From the NCBI GenBank assembly GCA_905235305.1, contig CAJOLC010000003.1, positions 1-49,004 on the forward strand: a stretch of 49,004 nt of DNA, written 5' to 3'. Both the position numbers and the translations under genes were made by a program. This document shows, in pieces, positions 11,555 to 49,004 of the stretch. Within the stretch, counting starts at the first letter, position 1. Every line of letters starts with the position of its first letter. This stretch comes from an uncultured Bacteroidaceae bacterium. Its GTDB lineage: Bacteria > Bacteroidota > Bacteroidia > Bacteroidales > Bacteroidaceae. The notes beneath the pieces were generated by a model, which saw only the letters and a list, made by a program, of their open reading frames with translations, made no database searches and was not told where the DNA came from.

Positions 11555-11675
11555 CGAATTAATCCACAATCATCGACTCAAAATCCCCGATTTCTTTTAT
11601 TGATGTCCGGTAAAAAACGACCTGAAGCCCCTTTTGTTTTATAATGTGACGTTTTTTTAATCCTACAGTCGCATT

Positions 11676-11744
11676 GTCAACAGGGACGCGTCGCTCTGAC
11701 CATAGGGACGCGTCGCTCTGACAACAGGGACGCGTCCCTCTGAC
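11676..11744. repeat. Three tandem 22-bp repeats with GGGACGCGTC core
   Basis: Three units with exact 22-bp period (11676-11697, 11698-11719, 11720-11741) share AGGGACGCGTC and CTCTGAC. The third contains the 12-bp palindrome GGGACGCGTCCC; in the first two one base breaks it (GGGACGCGTCGC). They sit between the murF-alr stop and the importer promoter in an otherwise empty 250-bp gap. Function unknown. Confidence 0.9.
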
Positions 11745-23633: not shown

Positions 23634-24045
23634 AGTCCGGTAAAATCTCGGGGGACGCCGCAGAGGGGCTGAAGCCTCACAGCCCAGGGCATCGCAGTCC
23701 GCTTCTGCCTTCAGACAGGCATTTACCATATTTCGTTGCGCGACACATCACGCCGGCACACTCAACGCAGCAGGGAGGATTGATTGCAGGTTCATGATGC
23801 TGCAATTGCAGGTTCATGAATATTCAATTGCAGGTTCATGATGCTGCAACGAACCCATGCTGATGAAGTGACGAAGCAGGCGTAGTGCATCGCGCTACAT
23901 ACTGCGGCGGATGCCTCCGCTGACTGGCATGAAGAAGAGAACGCTTTAGCCAAAACATCAGCGGGCAACAATGCACTTTAGTAAAAAAGGCATGCCGATT
24001 CTGTAATTTCCCCTCATTCTTTTTCCTATATTATTAAATAATGTG
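23634..24045. other. Intergenic stretch with GC-rich leader and brick repeats
   Basis: No gene is seen in these 400 bases. The left part is GC-rich and includes CAGCAGGGAGGATTG, similar to the flank of the repeat at 43533. Three 22-bp bricks follow, then further unassigned sequence to the nadE promoter. Confidence 0.6.
23783..23855. repeat. Brick-repeat element, copy A
   Basis: Three 22-bp units (23786-23807, 23808-23829, 23830-23851) begin GCAGGTTCATGA. The middle one continues ATATTCAATT and the outer ones TGCTGCAA. The array ends TGCAACGAACCC, the reverse complement of GGGTTCGTTGCA that opens copy C at 38303. Confidence 0.85.
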
Positions 24046-26150: not shown

Positions 26151-27515
26151 ATGAATGTTGAGAAGATTATGCAAGGCTTGGAGCAGAAGCATCCAGGCGA
26201 GCAAGAGTACCTGCAAGCTGTTCGCGAGGTTCTGGAAAGCATAAAGGACGTTTACAACCAGCACCCCGAATTCGAGAAAGCAAAGATTGTGGAGCGCATT
26301 GTCGAGCCTGAGCGCATCATCACCTTCCGTGTGCCTTGGGTTGACGACAAGGGCGAAGTGCAAGTCAACCTGGGCTATCGCGTGCAGTTCAACAGTGCGA
26401 TAGGTCCGTACAAAGGCGGCCTGCGTTTCCACAGCTCAGTCAACCTCAGCATCCTGAAGTTCCTTGGTTTCGAGCAGACATTCAAGAATGCCCTCACCAC
26501 CTTGCCCATGGGCGGTGGCAAAGGCGGCAGCGACTTCTCTCCCCGTGGCAAGAGTGATGCTGAAATCATGCGGTTCTGTCAGGCTTTCATGTCGGAACTC
26601 TTCAGGTACATAGGCCCCGATGTGGATGTCCCTGCTGGCGACATCGGCGTGGGAGGCCGCGAGATTGGTTACCTCTTTGGCATGTACAAGAAGCTCACGA
26701 CACAGTTCCATGCTGCCACCCTCACGGGCAAAGGCTTGGAATGGGGAGGAAGCATCCTCCGTCCGGAGGCCACAGGATTCGGCGCCCTATACTTCGTCAA
26801 CCAGATGATGCAGACGCATGGGCTCGACATCAAAGGCAAGACGGTTGCCCTCTCTGGCTTCGGAAACGTGGCTTGGGGCGCTGCCAAGAAGGCTACCGAG
26901 CTTGGGGCCAAGGTCATTACCATCAGTGGTCCCGATGGCTACATCTACGACCCGGCAGGTCTCGACGAGGAGAAGATTGACTACCTGCTTGAGCTTCGTG
27001 CCAGTGGCAACGACGTCTGCCAACCCTATGCAGAGCAATTCCCCGGCTCTGCTTTCTTCGAGGGCAAGAAGCCGTGGGAGCAGAAAGCCGACATCTACCT
27101 GCCCTGCGCCACTCAGAACGAGCTGAACGGCGAGGACGCGGACATGATTCTTGCCAACAAGCCGCTGTGTGTGGCAGAGGTCAGCAATATGGGATGTACG
27201 GCAGAAGCAGCCGAGAAGTTCATCGCTGCACGTCAGCTCTTTGCCCCTGGCAAGGCAGTGAATGCAGGAGGCGTGGCTACTTCAGGACTTGAGATGACGC
27301 AGAACTCAATGCGAATCTCTTGGACAGCCGAGGAGGTTGACAAGCGTCTGCATCAGATTATGTCGGGCATCCACGAGCAATGCGTCAAGTATGGTCGCGA
27401 GCCGAACGTCAACTGCCAGGGAGAACAGGGCGATTATGTCAACTACGTCAAAGGTGCCAACATCGCCGGCTTCATGAAGGTCGCAAAAGCCATGATGGCT
27501 CAGGGCATAGTTTAA
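26151..27515 (+). CDS. gdhA: NADP-type glutamate dehydrogenase
   Basis: The 454-residue hexameric-class enzyme interconverts 2-oxoglutarate plus ammonia and glutamate, a main ammonia-assimilation route in these bacteria. Marks are RVPWVDDKGEVQVNLGYRVQ (20), GPYKGGLRFH with the substrate lysine, LTTLPMGGGKGGSDF, VDVPAGDIGVGGREIGYLFG (20), TGKGLEWGGS and the Rossmann entry ALSGFGNVAWGAAKKATELG (20). The C-terminus has GGVATSGLEMTQNSMR. Length is normal. No clear TAnnTTTG box is seen in the 122-bp gap after nadE. Confidence 0.96.
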   Translation: MNVEKIMQGLEQKHPGEQEYLQAVREVLESIKDVYNQHPEFEKAKIVERIVEPERIITFRVPWVDDKGEVQVNLGYRVQFNSAIGPYKGGLRFHSSVNLSILKFLGFEQTFKNALTTLPMGGGKGGSDFSPRGKSDAEIMRFCQAFMSELFRYIGPDVDVPAGDIGVGGREIGYLFGMYKKLTTQFHAATLTGKGLEWGGSILRPEATGFGALYFVNQMMQTHGLDIKGKTVALSGFGNVAWGAAKKATELGAKVITISGPDGYIYDPAGLDEEKIDYLLELRASGNDVCQPYAEQFPGSAFFEGKKPWEQKADIYLPCATQNELNGEDADMILANKPLCVAEVSNMGCTAEAAEKFIAARQLFAPGKAVNAGGVATSGLEMTQNSMRISWTAEEVDKRLHQIMSGIHEQCVKYGREPNVNCQGEQGDYVNYVKGANIAGFMKVAKAMMAQGIV

Positions 27516-27520
27516 CCCAA

Positions 27521-27691
27521 GTCAGTCATCAAGGGCGCTTTCTCCATTCGCCCCCTGCCCCTTGCCCCTTGCTCCTCACTCCCATCACTATGGGTTGTTT
27601 GAACATACATGTATGTGCAATTGAATATTCATGAACCTGCAATTGAATATACATGTATGTTCAAACAACCCACCCTGCCATGTCCACCGAC
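27521..27691. repeat. Brick-repeat element, copy B (with inverted-repeat core)
   Basis: A left flank (AAGGGCGCTTTCTCC, then C-rich CCCCTTGCCCCTTGCTCC, then CATCACTATG) leads to a perfect 23-bp inverted repeat (27592-27614 and 27649-27671, ends GGGTTGTTTGAACAT). The repeat encloses a 34-bp core (27615-27648) of GAATATTCATGAACCT-type bricks. The right flank is CACCCTG..ATGTC. Copy D at 43533 has the same flanks in reverse orientation but the core in the same plus-strand orientation. Confidence 0.88.
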
Positions 27692-27878
27692 GCGGCAGGT
27701 TGGAGAAACGTAAAAACAAGGATGAAAGAGTGAGGAAACAGGCCTGATGACCTGTACGAATATAAGGGCGTACGCCAACGGAACAATAGATAAGGGCAGC
27801 ATCCTGACAGATGCTGCCCATACTTATAGCCTTATGAGATGACCCGTGGGATGGCTTCATCCCCCGACAAGGCATCGG
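27692..27878. other. Intergenic tail with a small hairpin
   Basis: No gene is seen. GGGCAGCAT (27794-27802) pairs with ATGCTGCCC (27811-27819). It lies about 60 bp beyond the beta-galactosidase stop and may end that transcript, but lacks a clear T-run. Confidence 0.4.
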
Positions 27879-38288: not shown

Positions 38289-38377
38289 CGACATAGCATA
38301 GTGGGTTCGTTGCAGGTTCATGAACATTCAATTGCAGGTTCATGAATATTCAATTGCAGGTTCATGATGCTGCAATC
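38289..38377. repeat. Brick-repeat element, copy C
   Basis: Flank CGACATAGCATAGTGGGTTC leads into three 22-bp units (38312-38333, 38334-38355, 38356-38377) each starting GCAGGTTCATGA. The first two continue ACATTCAATT and ATATTCAATT, the third TGCTGCAA. It lies between the convergent ends of the sialidase-fold gene and lolD. The flank matches CGACATAACAGGGAGGGTT of copy D. Confidence 0.85.
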
Positions 38378-38420: not shown

Positions 38421-39074
38421 TCATCCAACTATCTTGCCGTCCTGCATACATATCTTGCGGTCGGCAAGGTCGGCGAGCTGTTCGTCGTGGGTAACGATGA
38501 CGAAGGTCTGCCCCATATGGTCGCGAAGGTCGAAGAAGAGGCGATGCAGCTCCTCCTTATTGTGGCTGTCGAGCGAACCACTCGGCTCATCGGCAAAGAC
38601 GACGTCGGGTTTCCTGGCAAGCGCTCTGGCGACTGCCACCCGTTGCTTCTCGCCTCCGGACAGCTCGCTTGGCTTGTGCGAGGCACGCTGAGACAGTCCC
38701 ATGAAGCTCAGCAACTCTTCTGCCCGAAGCCTGGCTTCCTTCCTGGAGGTGCCGCCAATAAGGGCGGGCATCATGACATTCTCGAGGGCAGTGAACTCGG
38801 GAAGGAGCTGATGGAACTGGAATACGAAGCCAAGGTGCTTGCCGCGGAATGCTGAACGACGGGCATCGCTGAGCTTCATGACGTCAACCCCGTCGATGAT
38901 GACGCTGCCGCTGTCGGGTTTGTCGAGCGTACCCATAATCTGCAGGAGCGTGGTCTTGCCTGCTCCGCTTGGTCCCACGATGCTTACGATCTCGCCTCGA
39001 GATATGTCCAAGTCTATGCCACTCAGTACTTCAAGACTGCCGAAGCTCTTCTTTATGTCTCGTATCTGTATCAT
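38421..39074 (-). CDS. lolD: LolD-like ABC transporter ATPase
   Basis: The 217-residue ATPase resembles LolD, which powers release of lipoproteins from the inner membrane, and the MacB/FtsE group. Walker [11 protein letters not shown]-loop [12 protein letters not shown], signature [16 protein letters not shown], Walker [14 protein letters not shown] and switch IVTHD are all intact. No LolC/E permease gene is adjacent. Its ATG overlaps the stop of the upstream antiporter-protease gene by 4 bp (ATGA), so the two are translationally coupled, which is an odd pairing. Confidence 0.87.
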
Positions 39075-42000
39075 TTAAGTACCTTTTTACCGTTTATGAT
39101 ATTGATGCCTTTCTGAGGTCGGGAAAGGCGCTGACCTGCAAGGTTAACTATCGTTGAGCTTTGCTTATAGATAGATTGGCTGCCTGCCATAGGCCTCCAG
39201 GCGCCCACTTCGTCCAGCCCATCGGGATGCTCCAGCAGGTAGTTCAGGCCTGCCTCAGCGTCTATCTCGCCATTGCCATAGTCATTGTTGGGATAAACGA
39301 GCGAAGGGTCATGGTGTCGGCAAGTGGCACGAAAGGCATCGATGACCCGCTCCCTGGTGAGATGAGGAATGGCTTCCATCCATTGGGCAATGATGCCTGC
39401 CACGATGGGACATGCCATGCTGGTGCCCCTTTGCGATGACCAAGCGTAATTGCGCCCCTCAAAGGTATAGCGAGCGACGTCATACGCCTTTACATTATCA
39501 TCAGGATTCATCTCGGTATAGAAGCTGTTGAAGCCTGCCACGATGTTTGAACCTGGCGCAAGCACGTCGGGCTTGACAAGGCCAGCAAGGGTCGGGCCGC
39601 GGCTGCTATAGGGTGCCACAGAACCCGATATGCCGTAATCATGGCTTACCCAGACGCCGTCACAATCATAGAATCCCTTTCTATAGGATGTTGCTCCCAC
39701 GCAAATGACATTGGGGTCCGTGGAAGGATAGAGAATGTTGTGTGTCTTCTCTGCATCCTGATAGTCGGGATAATACGCCAGGGTCTGCAGAGTTCCTATT
39801 TCCTGAAAGACTTCGACTTCGGATTCCTCTCCGGTTATACCTATTCCCATCTGTATGGAAATATACGGCCTCTTGCTTACCTTATTTATCACGACATCGG
39901 TGGCAAGCTGACTCTTATCATAACAACAGTCATAAGAGCCGAAGATGAGCTCGAATATATAGTCGCCTGCCGTGACAGTATCAACAAGGAGACTGTCCTC
40001 GGTGGCAAGGATATCCGAGAGAGGCACCTCGTAATTAAGGTAACTCTCCGTAGGGGACTTCATGAAGTCGAGGTGAATCCTGAAGTCGCCACGGCTGCGG
40101 AGCATCATATATGTGGTGTTGCCAGAAGGCGAGATGAGCGAGGCGACGTGCTCCTTTCCGGCAGGTTTATGCATATACGTGTAGTAATTGCTTTGATTGC
40201 CTGCGGCTGTACAGATGATGCGACCAGGGCGAACCAGGCTGTCGAGTACGGTGCTATAGAGTTGTGCCTCGCCATAAAGGTCCTCGTGAGAGCCTTCGCT
40301 GAAACTAATGACACAGGGCTTCTTCACCTCATCTGCATAACGGAAGATATATTCGAAGCCCATCAGGTCGATGGCAGCACCATACATGCTCCAAAGAGAA
40401 TCGGGCACCAGCTCCTTGTCATCGGATACGGCATTCGATACAAGACATATCTCCGCATCGGGAGCCATTCCGATATAGGGCGAATCATACCCGCTGCCGG
40501 CAGCCGTAGTAGCAGTATGCGTACCATGATATTGCAAGCGGCTGTCGGAGGAACATGCTTTCTGGAGAATCGTTTCCTCTGAGGTATAGGCTCTCCCTAT
40601 AGGAAGTTCCATGCCATAGACCTGTTCCTGCTCTGATGAGGGCATGGAGGCTTCGTCTATGTCGAGCATGTCCCAGAACGAACGGACGCGATAAGTGCTG
40701 AGGTCACGACTGTAGAACGAGGGATTGGTCAAGTCGAAACCGATGTCCATCACGCCTACGACGACGCCTTTACCCGTATATGAGGGGCGATAAGGGGTGG
40801 CAGACCGAAGGAGGTCAGAGCGTGTGATGATGGCGGATGTATCGGTCTGAGCACTGCAAACCCTGCCGCATTCGATGCGGCTCACTTCCTTCCGAAGCGA
40901 CAGAGCCGCAAGTTCTCGCTTGGGAATACTGGCTGCATAGATGTTTCCCCAATGATGATAGATGCGGCAGCCATGTTGCCGGAGGGCTTCTTCGCTGGAG
41001 GATTGAACAAGAGCCAGCATGCCTTCTCCCGACGCCTGCCTTTGGGAGTTGCTCTTTTGGCGAGTCTCGGCCTTTGGACTGTGGGCTTTGTATTCATTTA
41101 AGGCAGCATACCTCGCCATTGGCGACATCTTATCGAACCTCGGACGCTGTGCCTGTGCCAGGGATGGCAGGGTGAGGGCAAACAGCAATGGCAATGCCGA
41201 GCGTCGTGCCGTGAAGAGCCAGCGACGGAGGAAGCCGCCGATGGAGCGTGGCTGACGCTGTACTGCGGTGCCGTTAGGGGTAAAGACCGAGATGCTTTCC
41301 TGCGGTTCGCCCCATTGGTCGGGGAATAGGAGCATGACGCTCGTATGGCTGAAGTAGCGATGCACCAGCAAGGGAAGCTCCTCGAAGCTGCTCTGATAGG
41401 AGATGAAACCAGGCCGTGCCGTCACTGCGACGAGCATGCAGTTCAGGTCCATATCGTGCCTCAGGTTGAGGAATTGCATCCAGCGGTTCATCTCGAAATA
41501 ATGGGAGCGGACGTGACTGTGCTTCTGCTCCATGTATCCTTTAATATAAGGTAGCGTGTCCGCATGCACGTGATATTCCAGATGGCAATCCAATTCCTCG
41601 CCTATTCTGCAGATATGTTCCAGCCACTTATAGAATCCGACTTCGTATTCAGCCTTCTGGGGAACAGCGATGACGACGCGTCGGATGGTGCCGGGAGGCA
41701 CGATGCTGCGCACTGCCATCACTTCTCTGTGAGTGCCGCTCAGCACGTTGTCTATCACACTTCCAAGCGAGGATTTGGACATTCCGGTCGTCCTGTCGGT
41801 CAGGCAGACGATGAGTTCGCCGCAGTCATACTCGTTCATGGTGTGGAGGATGCCGCCGGCGATGTTGGTGCTCATGCGGTTCAGGGTCGCCATTGGCACG
41901 TCGGCAGAGGCGGCTATCATCTGTGCTTTCTCGAGCAAGCGCCTTCCCATGATGTGACTGTTATCGGAGGTTTGCTGATCATTGTCATCGGCAACGCAAA

Positions 42001-43342
42001 GTCCCATGAGGCTGTCGGGGATGAAAGGGTTGCGGATGAGGATGGCAAGCTGTGTCATGACGTCGACGTTATCCCCTTGGCTGTATGTGATAAGGCATTT
42101 GCCGTGGTAGGAGCCTCGGTTGTCTTCGAGCGATGTATCGCTTAATGCAAGTCCTTTTGCACCGCGGCTTGTGGCAAAACCGCTTATCAGGCAACTGAAG
42201 AGGATGAGCATCACGGTGCCGCCAAGCAGCTCGTTGTTCATGAGGTTCACGGTCGGGGCTGTTCCGATGGTTACTATCGCGAGGGCCCCGGCAGCATGGG
42301 CATTGGTCAGGCCGAACATGAGCCACATGCTGTTCCTGCCCTCGCCCATCGTCCAAGCCATGATGGCCGAGGCTGCCAGCTTGGAGAGCGTGCCTGTCAA
42401 GACCATTACGGTGACGAGCCAAAGCGCTTCGGGATGGCGGAACAGGATGCCGATGTCGATAATCATGCCTACGCCTATGAGGAAATAAGGAATGAACAGG
42501 GCATTGCCCACGAACTCCAGGCGCGACATCAGAGGACTGGTCTTGGGGATAAGACGATTGACGATCAAGCCCGCGAGGAATGCTCCGAGCAGTCCTTCAA
42601 GCCCGACCATCTTTGCCAGCGACGCACTGAGGAAGACGAGAGTCAAGATGAAGATGAACTGCATGACGCCGTCCTGATACCGACGCAGGAACCAGCGTCC
42701 CACTCTTGGGAACACCAGAATGGCAAAGGCAACATAGAGGCCGCACTTCAGACCAAAGAGGAGCCAGGTCATCAAGGACGTATCGGGATTCTGCCCACCC
42801 ACCACCAACGCCAGTATCAACAGGGCAGCCAGAAGGGCAATGGCTGTAGCAACGACACTCACAACCACGACCCTGTGCCTGTTCAGGCCGTAGCGTCCGA
42901 TGATGGGGTACGTCACGAGGGTATGACTGGCATAGATGCAAGCCATGAGAATGCTGGTGGAGAGGCCGAAGCCAAGCAGCCAGACACTCGTGGCAATGCC
43001 CAGGATGAAGGGAATCATGAAGGTGAGGAGGCCGAACCGGAAGCCTGCACGCCCGTACAACTCCACACTCCCCATCTCAAGCTCCAGGCCGGCCAGGAAC
43101 ATGATATAGTAAATGCCCACCTGTCCGAAGAGTTCGAACGAGCGGTCGTGCGCAAGAAGATTGAAGCCGTACTGCCCAACCAGAATGCCGGCAATGATGA
43201 GCCCTACGACGGGCGGCACCCTGAGCCGCCTGAACAATAGCGGTGCGAACAGGATGATAGCCAGCACCACCGAGAAGCTCCATGTGGGGTCGGTGATGAG
43301 TGCAGTAGGCTGAACAGCCTGAAGGACACAGAAAAGCATCAT
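39071..43342 (-). CDS. CPA2 cation/proton antiporter fused to S8 subtilisin-like protease
   Basis: One continuous frame of 1423 codons from ATG 43342; the longer start at 43375 lies inside the -7 box. Residues about 1-400 form a Na/H exchanger-type membrane domain ([43 protein letters not shown]). A cytosolic UspA-like region extends to about 700. Then [20 protein letters not shown] followed by PSLAQA forms a signal-peptide-like segment (about 707-731). The protease domain has a full S8 triad: D866 (VMDIGFD), H942 (HGTHTA) and S1308 (GTSMACP), with oxyanion Asn in AAGNQSN. The C-terminus NLAGQRLS... [12 protein letters not shown] is a T9SS-like tail. Signal peptidase could split it after A731. 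Confidence 0.88.
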
Positions 43343-43372
43343 TTTGTCGCTCGCTAAGTACAGAATTTTTGG

Positions 43373-43380
43373 CAAAGTTA
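43373..43380 (-). promoter_or_regulatory. -7 box for the antiporter-protease/lolD operon
   Basis: TAACTTTG on the minus strand, 31 bp before ATG 43342. A second similar box, TAATTTTG, lies at 43413-43420. Confidence 0.5.
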
Positions 43381-43532: not shown

Positions 43533-43716
43533 GGTCGACCGACATAACAGGGAGGGTTGTTTGAACATACATGTATGTGCAATTGAATATTCATGAACCT
43601 GCAATTGAATATACATGTATGTTCAAACAAGGCATAGTGATGGGGAGCAAGGAGCAGGGGGCGAGGGGCAAGGTGCAAGGTGCATGGAGCGAGTGGAGAA
43701 AGCGCCCTTGACGACC
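43533..43716. repeat. Brick-repeat element, copy D (core inverted relative to copy B)
   Basis: Left flank TCGACCGACATAACAGGGAG, then inverted repeats (43557-43576 and 43611-43630, 20 bp perfect, TTGTTTGAACAT ends) around a 34-bp core (43577-43610). The right flank is CATAGTGATGGGGAGCAAGG, a G-rich stretch, and GGAGAAAGCGCCCTTGACGA. Both flanks match copy B in reverse orientation, while the core has copy B's plus-strand orientation. No gene is seen from 43381 to 43867. Confidence 0.88.
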
Positions 43717-43764
43717 GATTCGGAATAAAGTTTTACCCGAGAAATGCAATTTTTCGACCTCTGA

Positions 43765-45090: not shown

Positions 45091-48000
45091 ATGAAGAAAC
45101 ATTTTCTATTTCTTACTGCGCTTGTGTTAGGCTTCGGACAGCTAATGGCCGAACAAGTCACGTTCAGTGTGGGTGACCTGAAGGCATCGCTGCCGTCAGA
45201 CAACACAAACATCACTCTTCCCTACACATGGAAGACTGCGCCTTACTACGTGACGACCACCATCACGGGTACGGGTACTTTAGGTGTAAGCACCGTAATT
45301 GGCCTCACTGCCAACAACACCCTGACAGTGGCCGTAGCAGGTGAAGGCACCATCGACAAAATCACCGTTACCACCACCCCGGCAACCCAGGCTGCCAATG
45401 CAACTGTTGACACCGGCACATACGCCAGCGGCATATGGACTCCGGCAGAGGGCGAAACGACAAACTCTGTCACCTTCACCCCGACAAACACCTTCCGCGT
45501 GACAACAATCACAGTGTACTACACGCCCGACGAGGATGCAACGCCCGACGTACCCGTGGTAGAGCACTACACAGGCAAGCTCGTGGCCAATGCCGCTAAC
45601 TACTATGGCGGCACAGAACCCTTCGTCAAGGACGTCCTGACAGGCGACATCTATGCCCTCAACAACAAGGGAAAGTACGAGAAGTGGGGCGTAACTATCG
45701 TTGACGACCTGGAAAGCACTACGACCTACGAAGGCAAGCTCGTCATCCTCAGCACCGAAAACAACGAGTACAAGTATCTCGACGGTGAATGGCAGAATGT
45801 AGGCTCCACACAACCTGTGGAAATCGCAGACAACACCTACCAGAACATGAACAACTGGACATGTCGCTTTGGCTTTGCCACCACCTACGACAATATCGAG
45901 AACGAAGGCAACAACAACTTCTTCAACCCCTACAAGGGTGAAAGCGGTTGGGAACCCTATCAGGTCAAGGTAGCAGGTCTCACCGCTGGCAAGACCTACA
46001 AAGTTTCCTTCAACTTTACCGCCGAAGACGGCTGGAAATCTTGGGATGATGGCCGCTGGGCTGCACTTCCCGTCTTTGTGACAAACAACTGGGACTTCCC
46101 CCAGAACGAATTCTATCCCACTGCTGCCGGCGGTGATGTGCTTGGAGTTGTTCATGTGTCCAAGGCTGCTCAGACCAACGCACCCTACTCGTTCTCCTTC
46201 ATAGCAGATGCCGAGGAAACCACCCTTGCAGTAAACTTCGGTGTAGTGGACGATGCTCCCAATTACCTCTTCCACTTCGACAACCTTATGATAGAGGAAC
46301 AGCCCATCGTAGAGGCATACGACAAGAGCGCCTTCGAGTTCGTTGCCGGCGACGACCACACCTACTCTCCTCTGGCTTACATCGAGAGCACTGGAGCAAT
46401 CAGGGAGAACCCCTTCACCCTGCCCTACATTGCAAATGACAACACCGAAGTGGATGTCAAGTTCAACCTGTACCAGAACAATGGTTGGGCAGCCATCTTC
46501 AGCGGACGTAACGGCGCTGATGCCAACACCGGTATCTCTCTCTACAAGAATGGCGACAGGGCTCAGTTCGGTTACTTCGTGGGTGGCTACAGAAACGACG
46601 ACCACGCACCGTTCCCCGGATTCAATGAGGACGTCACCGTAGCCGCCACATTGGGCAAGCTGAACGTGAACGGCACAGACTACGCAACAAACCAAACGAC
46701 ATTCAATGCCTCCACACGCGCCATCTCCATCTTCGCTAATCCTGAATGGGATAATCCCATCCGCGGACGCATCTACTCTGCTACCATCAAGGAAGATGGC
46801 ACTACCATCTACGACTTCAAGCCCGTATTGCGTAACGACGGTGTGTATGGCTACTACGACGAAGCTTCGAAGCTCTTCATACAGCCCATACAGAACTACA
46901 ACGGCTATGGCTACGGCATTAGCGAGGAAACAGCCTGCATCTATTTCCCCGACGAAGTCCGCATGGTATATGTAGGCTTCGACGAGAAGTTCGAACCCAC
47001 AATTCAGAACATCGAGACAACTCCTTCGTTCACTTGGACATCTTCCGATGAAAGCGTTGCCACCGTTGCTGCCGACGGTACCGTTACCGGCGTGGCAAGA
47101 GGCACTGCTACCATCACTGCTACCGATGCCAACAGCGGCTGGGTTGCAAGCTACGTACTGACAGTAGAGCCTGCCACAATTGCTGCCGACTACGTTGAGG
47201 AATGGAACGGCGAGAGCGACGCCATCGTAGGCTCTATCCGCTGGAGCGGCGACAGCTATAAGCCCGCCTACACCATGACTTTCGACTCCGGCATGGCTTA
47301 CGATGCCGCTCACTACAATGAGATTTATGGCACTCCCGGCAATGACGAGAACGGCAAGGCATGGTACGAGACCGACTTCCAGATGACCAATGCAAAGGGT
47401 GCTATCTGGAGCTACAACAACACCGTCCTGCCCAATGGCTGGCCCGGCAACATGGGCGAAGTCTATGTACGTCGCTACTTCAAGGCTGAAGGCGAACTGC
47501 CCGAACAGCTCTACATGCCCGCAGCTCACGACGATGCTCCCTGCGAATACTACATCAACGGCACGCTCGTATGGAGCCGCACTGGCTTCGAACCCGGTGT
47601 CGATGGCTGGTACGAGGGTGAAGTTGTGAAGCTCAATGCAGAACAGCGTGCTCTCATCAAGACCGACGGCAGCGTCAACGTCTTTGCTTACCACGTTCAC
47701 CAGAACTGGGGCGGTCGCTACGCCGACGGTGGTATCTACGGCAACAGCATGGCCGACAACTCTCCCAGCAAGAGCTTCGAGGGCAACGAAAACCGCAAGC
47801 GTCTTGCCAGTGCTCTGGCACAGGCTGAAGGCGTAGAAGGCATCGATGCCGATGTTCTTGCTTACGCACAGAACGCTAACGTATGTCTGCAGGATGCAGG
47901 TCGTGCCCTCGGTCTCATCCGTTGGGAGCTCCGCAAGGCTCTCTCTCCGCGTCATGACTATGACTTCGCTTCTGCTGAACCCGCCGACAATCTGGAGTGC

Positions 48001-49004
48001 TGGCTCTACAACGTAGGTGCAGGTCAGTTCCTCGCAGGTAGCAACGACTGGGGTACTCACGCTTCTCTCGACTACAACATCAGCGCATGGCCTATGCTTC
48101 TTCTTGCCAACACCAGCGGCGATAACCGCTACTCTATCCGCACCAACCTGCCCAACGGCCTGCGTGGTGCTAACGACGGCCTCGGTCACAACGGTTATGT
48201 TGACTGCGGTTTTGGCGGCGACTTCACAACTGGCGAAGGCTGGGCTTGGACATTCGAAGCTGTCGGCAACGGCAACTATCGCATCATCCAGAGCGGCACT
48301 GACCGCTACCTCGGCATGACAGAGGACGAACGTTATCAGGTGGACACCGACAAGGCTGGTGCCGAAAACCTCTACAACCAGTGGAAGCTCATCACTCGCG
48401 AACAGTTCGACGCACTTGCAGCAGAAGCTACTCCCGAGAATCCTGCTGATGTCAGCTACTACATCCACCAGAACACTTTCAGCCAGAACGACTTCGACGG
48501 CAACGACAAGGGCGCAGCCAATGGCGACCTCAACGACTCCAAGTGGGAGCGCAACGCTGGCAACATCTGGGAATGGAAGAACAACGCATCCAATGGCGAC
48601 TTTGTATATGAAATGTGGAATACTGCCGCTGCCGATGTAGGTAAGGTTTACCTCAAGCAGACCATCGAAGGCCTGCCCGCAGGTAAGTACATCGTGGAAT
48701 GCACAGGCTACTATCGCGATGGCAACTGGGAATCTGCTATTGCAGGCAACGTCAGCCAGCTGGCTTACATCTATGCAGGCAACGAGGAGAACAGCGCACT
48801 GCTGCCCAACATCATGGACGGTGCCAACAAGGGTGCAGGCTATGGCCGCGCTGACAACGAGCAGATTATTCCCGACGGCTGTGCAGATGCTCCACGCTTC
48901 TTCAAGCTCGGCACATACACCGTTCAGGCTCCCGTTGCTACCGTAGGTGAAAACGGCAAGCTCGAAATTGGTATCTACCGCAATGCAGAAGGTGCTAAGG
49001 AAAA
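45091..49004 (+). CDS. Giant secreted multidomain protein (3' end off window)
   Basis: The frame is open from ATG 45091 to the right edge (1304 codons). Signal peptide MKKHFLFLTALVLGFGQLMA. Visible parts: beta-sandwich N-terminus; a concanavalin/LamG-like region (about 430-603, with ISLYKNGDRAQFGYFVGG); a Big_2 Ig-like domain (about 633-693, TWTSSDESVATVAADGTVTG, 20); a galactose-binding-like domain (about 705-850, with EYYINGTLVW); a ricin-like trefoil (about 970-1100, CWLYNVGAGQFLAGS); and a further sandwich (about 1118-1304). No catalytic motif is recognised, so it may be a glycan-binding surface protein or carry its enzyme domain beyond the edge. GCT, GGT, CGT and AAC/GAC/TAC/ATC codons are common, suggesting high expression. 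Confidence 0.85.
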   Translation, partial: MKKHFLFLTALVLGFGQLMAEQVTFSVGDLKASLPSDNTNITLPYTWKTAPYYVTTTITGTGTLGVSTVIGLTANNTLTVAVAGEGTIDKITVTTTPATQAANATVDTGTYASGIWTPAEGETTNSVTFTPTNTFRVTTITVYYTPDEDATPDVPVVEHYTGKLVANAANYYGGTEPFVKDVLTGDIYALNNKGKYEKWGVTIVDDLESTTTYEGKLVILSTENNEYKYLDGEWQNVGSTQPVEIADNTYQNMNNWTCRFGFATTYDNIENEGNNNFFNPYKGESGWEPYQVKVAGLTAGKTYKVSFNFTAEDGWKSWDDGRWAALPVFVTNNWDFPQNEFYPTAAGGDVLGVVHVSKAAQTNAPYSFSFIADAEETTLAVNFGVVDDAPNYLFHFDNLMIEEQPIVEAYDKSAFEFVAGDDHTYSPLAYIESTGAIRENPFTLPYIANDNTEVDVKFNLYQNNGWAAIFSGRNGADANTGISLYKNGDRAQFGYFVGGYRNDDHAPFPGFNEDVTVAATLGKLNVNGTDYATNQTTFNASTRAISIFANPEWDNPIRGRIYSATIKEDGTTIYDFKPVLRNDGVYGYYDEASKLFIQPIQNYNGYGYGISEETACIYFPDEVRMVYVGFDEKFEPTIQNIETTPSFTWTSSDESVATVAADGTVTGVARGTATITATDANSGWVASYVLTVEPATIAADYVEEWNGESDAIVGSIRWSGDSYKPAYTMTFDSGMAYDAAHYNEIYGTPGNDENGKAWYETDFQMTNAKGAIWSYNNTVLPNGWPGNMGEVYVRRYFKAEGELPEQLYMPAAHDDAPCEYYINGTLVWSRTGFEPGVDGWYEGEVVKLNAEQRALIKTDGSVNVFAYHVHQNWGGRYADGGIYGNSMADNSPSKSFEGNENRKRLASALAQAEGVEGIDADVLAYAQNANVCLQDAGRALGLIRWELRKALSPRHDYDFASAEPADNLECWLYNVGAGQFLAGSNDWGTHASLDYNISAWPMLLLANTSGDNRYSIRTNLPNGLRGANDGLGHNGYVDCGFGGDFTTGEGWAWTFEAVGNGNYRIIQSGTDRYLGMTEDERYQVDTDKAGAENLYNQWKLITREQFDALAAEATPENPADVSYYIHQNTFSQNDFDGNDKGAANGDLNDSKWERNAGNIWEWKNNASNGDFVYEMWNTAAADVGKVYLKQTIEGLPAGKYIVECTGYYRDGNWESAIAGNVSQLAYIYAGNEENSALLPNIMDGANKGAGYGRADNEQIIPDGCADAPRFFKLGTYTVQAPVATVGENGKLEIGIYRNAEGAKE

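Follow-up and report, generated by a model that had tools for sequence, protein, structure and literature searches.

Palindromic three-unit repeats of an uncultured Bacteroidaceae bacterium lie with their core in both orientations and show inversion in place at one orthologous locus

Hairpin-associated small inversions are known from chloroplast DNA, where a segment between short inverted repeats occurs in both orientations with no dedicated enzyme known; those inversions are organellar and found at single loci. Template switching between short inverted repeats homogenizes the arms and inverts the spacer, with inverted spacers differing at 2-5 bases (PMC8604942), and the same process has been extended to hairpin maintenance (PMC8794818). 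BrickBuilt of Porphyromonas gingivalis (PMC4596501) is the nearest Bacteroidales comparison found. It is an intergenic, MITE-like element with inverted ends and an internal tandem short repeat, a direct repeat of 23 nt whose copy number ranges from 1 to 22.8, and 19 elements are reported from ATCC 33277. REPINs and REP sequences with RAYT (PMC3116915 and PMC8266576) are high-copy extragenic palindromes in which an inverted pair and its spacer form a hairpin with compensatory changes.

The window analysed here is a stretch of 49,004 nt that makes up contig C3 of a 2.48-Mb genome in 89 contigs (G000), and it carries copies of a repeat family. The unit of this family is a 22-bp imperfect palindrome, TTG-N6-CATG-N6-CAA, and three units form a core of 66 bp. 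The unit pattern gave 271 matches per strand in G000, and the reversed-pattern control gave 0. Reading of 117 loci yielded 115 arrays, 110 of them with exactly three units (66 bp); the other five (four with two units, one of these truncated by a contig end, and one with four units) were left out of the core, flank, orientation, end and gene-context counts. The 110 cores comprise 37 distinct sequences, the commonest present in 14, 13 and 13 copies. Ninety units lie within 2 mismatches of one unit; 57 are exact, and in the 33 others the TTG/CATG/CAA frame is free of mismatches. Two of the copies, L080 and L081, are alike in both flanks, with an identical core in the same orientation, and are probably a recent duplication.

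Unlike BrickBuilt, this family has palindromic units of 22 bp, a nearly constant number of units, about 115 copies and other ends; identity with BrickBuilt was rejected because the repeat is different, with no 23-nt direct repeat of variable number. Compared with REPINs, it has three units, inverted ends, a possible 5-bp duplication and no Y1 transposase that tracks it. Based on crude ORF calls, 34 of the 110 copies lie between tandem genes, 25 between convergent and 13 between divergent genes, 25 overlap an ORF call and 13 lie at edges. A role as transcription terminator was rejected because the copies are spread over tandem, convergent and divergent gene pairs. A known RNA family was also discarded, as the window matches only a tRNA, and so was viral, phage or plasmid cargo, with no match in viral contigs (two-unit pattern), plasmids or phages.

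A generic two-unit pattern was found in 31 of 139 genomes of the genus (G000 included); 392 genomes from elsewhere in the order had none. The named carriers, with at least 75 stretches, are MAGs labelled Bacteroidaceae, Prevotellaceae or Bacteroidales; among the matches listed, the source was rumen, omasum or cecum wherever the title states it. Among the open-licence papers listed for rumen or Prevotella MITEs, for Bacteroidetes palindromic repeats and for the unit motif, no title or abstract opening describes the element.

A preliminary description of the window had proposed that the core is inverted relative to the flanks between two copies, B and D. This was confirmed: the 66-bp core of B is identical to that of D base for base on the + strand, as is the 34-bp centre, and the flanks of D align with those of B only once reverse-complemented. 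Only 24 of the 34 positions of the centre agree with its reverse complement, which makes its orientation readable. The perfect inverted repeats described as 20-23 bp long are present and extend to at most 24 bp for B and 20 bp for D. The repetition is not due to chance: an 18-mer put forward in that description as a recombinase site, which corresponds to half of one unit and a little flank, has 8 matches in the window when as many as 3 mismatches are allowed, versus 0.02 expected. Flanks that carry a GCAAGG-type heptad tract were classed as type II and all others as type I. The features of the copies in the window are as follows.

23784..23849, + strand: core of copy A, three 22-bp units of other half-site types
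27511..27515, + strand: candidate left target duplication of B, TTTAA, containing the gdhA stop codon; 4/5 match with TATAA at 27761-27765
27516..27760, no strand assigned: copy B, entire element as delimited here, 245 bp, from the gdhA stop codon to a terminator-like hairpin; end motifs on both sides, 3 mismatches each
27516..27531, + strand: first inverted end of B, reading CCCAAGTCAGTCATCA where the consensus of the family is CCCGAAYMGGTCATYA; differs at 3 positions and is weak when taken alone
27591..27614, + strand: left perfect arm of B, 24 bp, pairing with 27649-27672
27599..27664, + strand: core of B, three 22-bp units (27599-27620, 27621-27642, 27643-27664)
27615..27648, + strand: 34-bp centre of B, its orientation relative to the flanks differing from D
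27649..27672, + strand: right perfect arm of B, 24 bp, pairing with 27591-27614
27745..27760, - strand: second inverted end of B; 3 mismatches to consensus
27761..27765, + strand: candidate right target duplication of B, TATAA; 4/5 match with TTTAA at 27511-27515
38310..38375, + strand: core of copy C, three 22-bp units
43557..43576, + strand: left perfect arm of D, 20 bp
43561..43626, + strand: core of D, three 22-bp units, same + strand sequence as B
43577..43610, + strand: 34-bp centre of D
43611..43630, + strand: right perfect arm of D, 20 bp
43709..43724, - strand: type II end of D, TCCGAATCGGTCGTCA; 2 mismatches

The end-motif search found no opposite end of D. Copies A and C had been described as agreeing with B in orientation; this is not supported, because neither has long perfect arms and both were scored as having type I flanks on both sides.

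Orientation could be read in the 28 of 110 copies that are asymmetric in flank type. Relative to the canonical core, the type II flank lies on the left in 14 and on the right in 14; a stricter rule gave 12:11 (n=23) and a looser one 17:16 (n=33). The core is thus randomly oriented across the family. The sequence shared by B and D, one of those in 13 copies, is found exactly in 8 asymmetric copies, 5 of them D-like and 3 B-like. Tabulation of core against flank orientation across genomic copies, a check suggested in the preliminary description, did reveal both orientations, and the view of D as the flipped copy had to be abandoned. To relate orientation to flank similarity, 106 of the 110 copies were compared in pairs, which share members and are not independent. 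The ratio of same to swapped orientation was 5:1 at flank-pair scores of at least 40, 14:1 at 35, 18:7 at 30, 41:25 at 25 and 64:56 at 20. The sole swapped pair at 35 or above is L050/L058, with identical cores. Since the pairs most alike in their flanks retain orientation, flips must be slow. Inversion of the core relative to the flanks is real but slow. In another flank-similar pair, L037/L114, the cores differ at 5 positions.

The inversion footprint first seen in two copies was further extended to an orthologous locus. A flank search matched 14 of the 139 genus genomes; two (G065 and G154) matched over about 40 bases only and were left out, and reading through the core covered the remaining 12. 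The frame is intact in eight of these, and the core is inverted in two of the eight: it lies one way in G138 and G076 and the other way in G123, G100 and G119. G123 and G138 agree at 54 of 66 positions directly and at 64 when one core is inverted; the corresponding values are 57 and 63 for G100/G138 and 60 and 64 for G076/G119. In all three pairs the middle unit matches at 22/22 positions when inverted, and the flanks are collinear (right flank 82, 81 and 73%, left flank 74, 73 and 67% in that order). Pairs of the same orientation gave direct and inverted values of 61 and 57 (G076-G138) and 63 and 57 (G123-G100). The cores of G000, G005 and G027 lean towards the orientation of G123, G100 and G119 with smaller margins; against G076, G005 and G027 gave 60 direct and 61 inverted, one position apart. 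Among non-syntenic cores compared between species, 0.5% of 2177 pairs and 0.8% of 264 pairs agreed at 63 or more of the 66 positions and also had an exact middle unit, whichever orientation was taken. Given inverted matches of 63-64/66, collinear flanks and the rarity of such agreement among non-syntenic pairs, the core at this locus has therefore turned over in place. A gdhA tree placed G119 near G076 and G138 with a weak support of 0.73, so that one inversion event and two are indistinguishable.

Employing a stricter pattern that kept 82 G000 arrays, we obtained 28 pairs syntenic on both sides, with an exact middle unit directly in two and inverted in two, one of the latter being G100/G138 again. 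The second of these inverted pairs, L152/L173 (RGIG2699/RUG606), is another candidate orthologous inversion; it gave 56/66 directly and 60/66 inverted, which is within chance. Among the 12 genomes read at the orthologous locus, eight have no frame deviation, whereas G012 has 4, G024 has 3, G035 has 2 and G126 has 1. Two-unit matches genome-wide numbered 4 in G012, 6 in G024, 41 in G035 and 7 in the intact G138. A link between frame decay and small family size is suggestive only: G012 and G024 fit it, but G035 and G138 do not.

We then compared the half-sites of the cores, numbered 1 to 6, with expectations from permutation within each genome. In other genomes, 68 of 73 three-unit windows were used (genomes with a single window were excluded, and a four-unit array counted as two overlapping windows). 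Half-sites 1 and 6 were equal in 31 windows versus 21.1 expected, and half-sites 2 and 5 in 42 versus 21.2. The two half-sites of one unit, on the other hand, were seldom equal: 0 versus 11.8 for 3 and 4, 1 versus 8.3 for 1 and 2, and 2 versus 7.0 for 5 and 6. In 16 more arrays of other dialects (some loci repeated), all three of these within-unit counts were 0. In G000, half-sites 1 and 6 were equal in 77 of 110 cores versus 39.9 expected, and half-sites 2 and 5 in 2 versus 0.7, which is not an enrichment; the likeness of the arms there concerns the outer half-sites only. Equality of 3 and 4 was 0 in G000 against 0.7 expected with the cores turned one way and 19.4 as they lie, and adds little. 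In none of the arrays read is the middle unit a perfect palindrome. The arms are thus kept alike, and the two half-sites of a unit are kept different, apart from a few exceptions in the first and third units. The half-site sets differ between genomes, forming species-specific dialects.

Long hairpins were obtained in 142 of 156 strand folds of the 78 distinct cores of other genomes and in 70 of 80 folds of the 40 distinct cores taken from G000. In the other genomes, natural cores folded at -35.6 kcal/mol versus -31.7 for half-shuffled cores, 3.9 better (12 shuffles); the same test in G000 gave a null result (z -0.2).

The 22-bp period extends beyond the core. In the first 110 bases of 179 type I flanks, autocorrelation (units of 1e-4) peaked at lags 22 (580) and 44 (455), all other lags between 15 and 49 staying within about 190 in magnitude, and the same two lags were again prominent in bases 31-176 alone. 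A stem or RNA formed by the flanks was rejected: in five stretches, tested on one group of 40 and one of 33 out of the 76 type I/I copies, left-right complementarity was no higher than in shuffled pairs (p 0.10 to 0.99).

An outward motif, T[GA]ATGACC[GT][AG]TTCGGG, was found with up to 3 mismatches on 50 of the 220 sides of the 110 copies, and at both ends in 13 copies; a looser search found it on 60 of 220 sides versus 10 of 206 control windows further out. Most copies are without a recognizable end. The distance from core to end is 60 bases in 14 cases, 82 in 12 (one 22-bp step apart) and other values in 24. The 5-bp sequences outside the ends showed an identity of 0.60 versus 0.51 when permuted (p 0.017, n=13) and match perfectly in L039 and L114; eight lengths were compared in all, and p was 0.026 for 8 bp. 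Downstream of gdhA, a terminator-like AAGGGCAGCATCC stretch shared by G123 and G000 lies 24 nt past the stop codon in G123 and 276 nt past it in G000; the short remainder aligns poorly. From the inverted ends, the weakly supported 5-bp target duplication and the 24 nt of G123 against 276 nt of G000, we therefore read the element as probably a MITE-like insertion. In the 29 best-matching relatives, the region after gdhA showed no exact unit over a span of up to 1.4 kb, less where the locus is shorter. By eye, the gdhA stop codon is followed by short repeats that resemble the 3' end of the gene in G076, G065, G138, G154, G016, G088, G008 and G100. A lone exact element end with no core (L283, G000:C2:445-460) lies beside a GCGTTGTAAATC...ACTTACAACGC hairpin and may be the end of another element; no parent transposon was recognized at this site, where the adjoining short frames gave no family above its cut-off.

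Our preferred explanation, held with moderate confidence, is that B and D belong to a set of about 115 intergenic MITE-like copies in which rare replication template switching within the quasipalindrome inverts the centre. Units 1 and 3 pair with each other and so fold the centre into a long quasipalindromic hairpin, the middle unit forming the tip. During replication, the polymerase would rarely switch template from one arm to the other, and such a switch would invert everything between the arms and make the arms more similar. Over many generations, the orientation of cores relative to flanks would be randomized, with close copies retaining theirs. Both parts of the signature, homogenized arms and an inverted spacer, were seen (in G000 the arm effect in the outer halves only), as for the short inverted repeats of PMC8604942 and PMC8794818. 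The yeast spacers published there are shorter, whereas here the middle is 22-34 bp, the element is multicopy and the comparison is made between species. Template switching would invert the core without a recombinase, consistent with the slow change; we infer it as the mechanism, and the element would have been spread by a transposase. The constancy of three units, the mismatch rule and the genome-wide dialects are not explained by template switching; core exchange and a recognizing protein are candidates for these.

Not all of the explanations weighed here exclude one another, because how the element spreads is a different question from how its core inverts. Gene conversion, by which cores would be copied between dispersed elements and symmetric arms would permit either orientation, is possible, if rather doubtful, as the source of the inversions. 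Such replacement fits the small number of distinct cores and the high copy number of the commonest beside far more diverged flanks, the half-site sets that vary between genomes, and flank-similar pairs with unlike cores; core exchange between copies also happens (L037/L114) and can imitate inversion. The orthologous inverted cores, however, combine 63-64/66 with an exact middle unit, an agreement reached by 0.5-0.8% of non-syntenic pairs. A phase switch, in which a recombinase turns the core over at its arms, would suit the exact footprint between perfect arms of 20-24 bp. We consider such dedicated inversion, which had been raised in the preliminary description, unlikely, because 14 of the 15 most similar pairs retain orientation and no recombinase domain was detected among the 24 window proteins scanned.

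Transposition as a single-stranded hairpin, as in REPINs, with orientation reset at every insertion, would account for high-copy intergenic palindromes with a long hairpin. The mismatched middle unit resembles the conserved stem mismatch that E. coli REP sequences need for their transposase (PMC8266576), and Y1_Tnp matches occur in the element-bearing G000, G013 and G027. It is nevertheless quite unlikely: PF01797 gave no match in the element-bearing G005, G012, G020, G024 and G035 and did match in the element-free G022 (these genomes being incomplete), and association with a RAYT was rejected because the Y1 transposase does not track the element. The Y1 match of G000 lies at C9:1845, with zero units in C9:1-4500 even at 2 substitutions, and the element has inverted ends and possibly a 5-bp duplication instead. 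A short-read MAG assembly artefact might arise from a nearly palindromic core identical in 13 copies, several copies lying within 300 bases of a contig end. This is very improbable: only about 80 bp are repeated, less than the length of common reads (the actual read length here may differ), and a like inversion recurs between separately listed genomes.

Beyond template switching, we tentatively propose that some protein may read the core, folded or phased, as a three-unit code. This would be in keeping with exactly three 22-bp units, a register shared with the 22-bp-periodic flanks and two different half-sites per unit, and with dialects that shift between species at the orthologous site while the frame stays constant. 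A trans-acting factor would keep dispersed cores alike, and the frame may decay without it (perhaps in G012 and G024). If true, the core would be a nucleoprotein site with evolving dialects. The strict three-unit design and half-site rules of this genus-restricted element ask for a recognizing protein. The family is also a multicopy natural record of bacterial core inversion, with more than 100 related quasipalindromes in one genome and orientation readable in a few dozen; some copies lie at orthologous sites in other species, and the rates of template switching and core exchange could be measured from it.

Other features of the window were recorded. A 1062-aa frame at 45280-48468 has zero Pfam matches at 0.001, and a single 1434-aa frame at 39071-43375 resembles a sodium/hydrogen exchanger as well as a subtilase by its matches, possibly a gene fusion or a frame problem. 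At 385-919, a 67-base repeat occurs six times at a spacing of 78 bases (one gap 156) and is probably a coding repeat. A GC-rich repeat at 11668-11744, GTCGC..GGGACGCGTC, occurs three times at 22-base spacing; it shares the 22-bp period with the family and differs in sequence.
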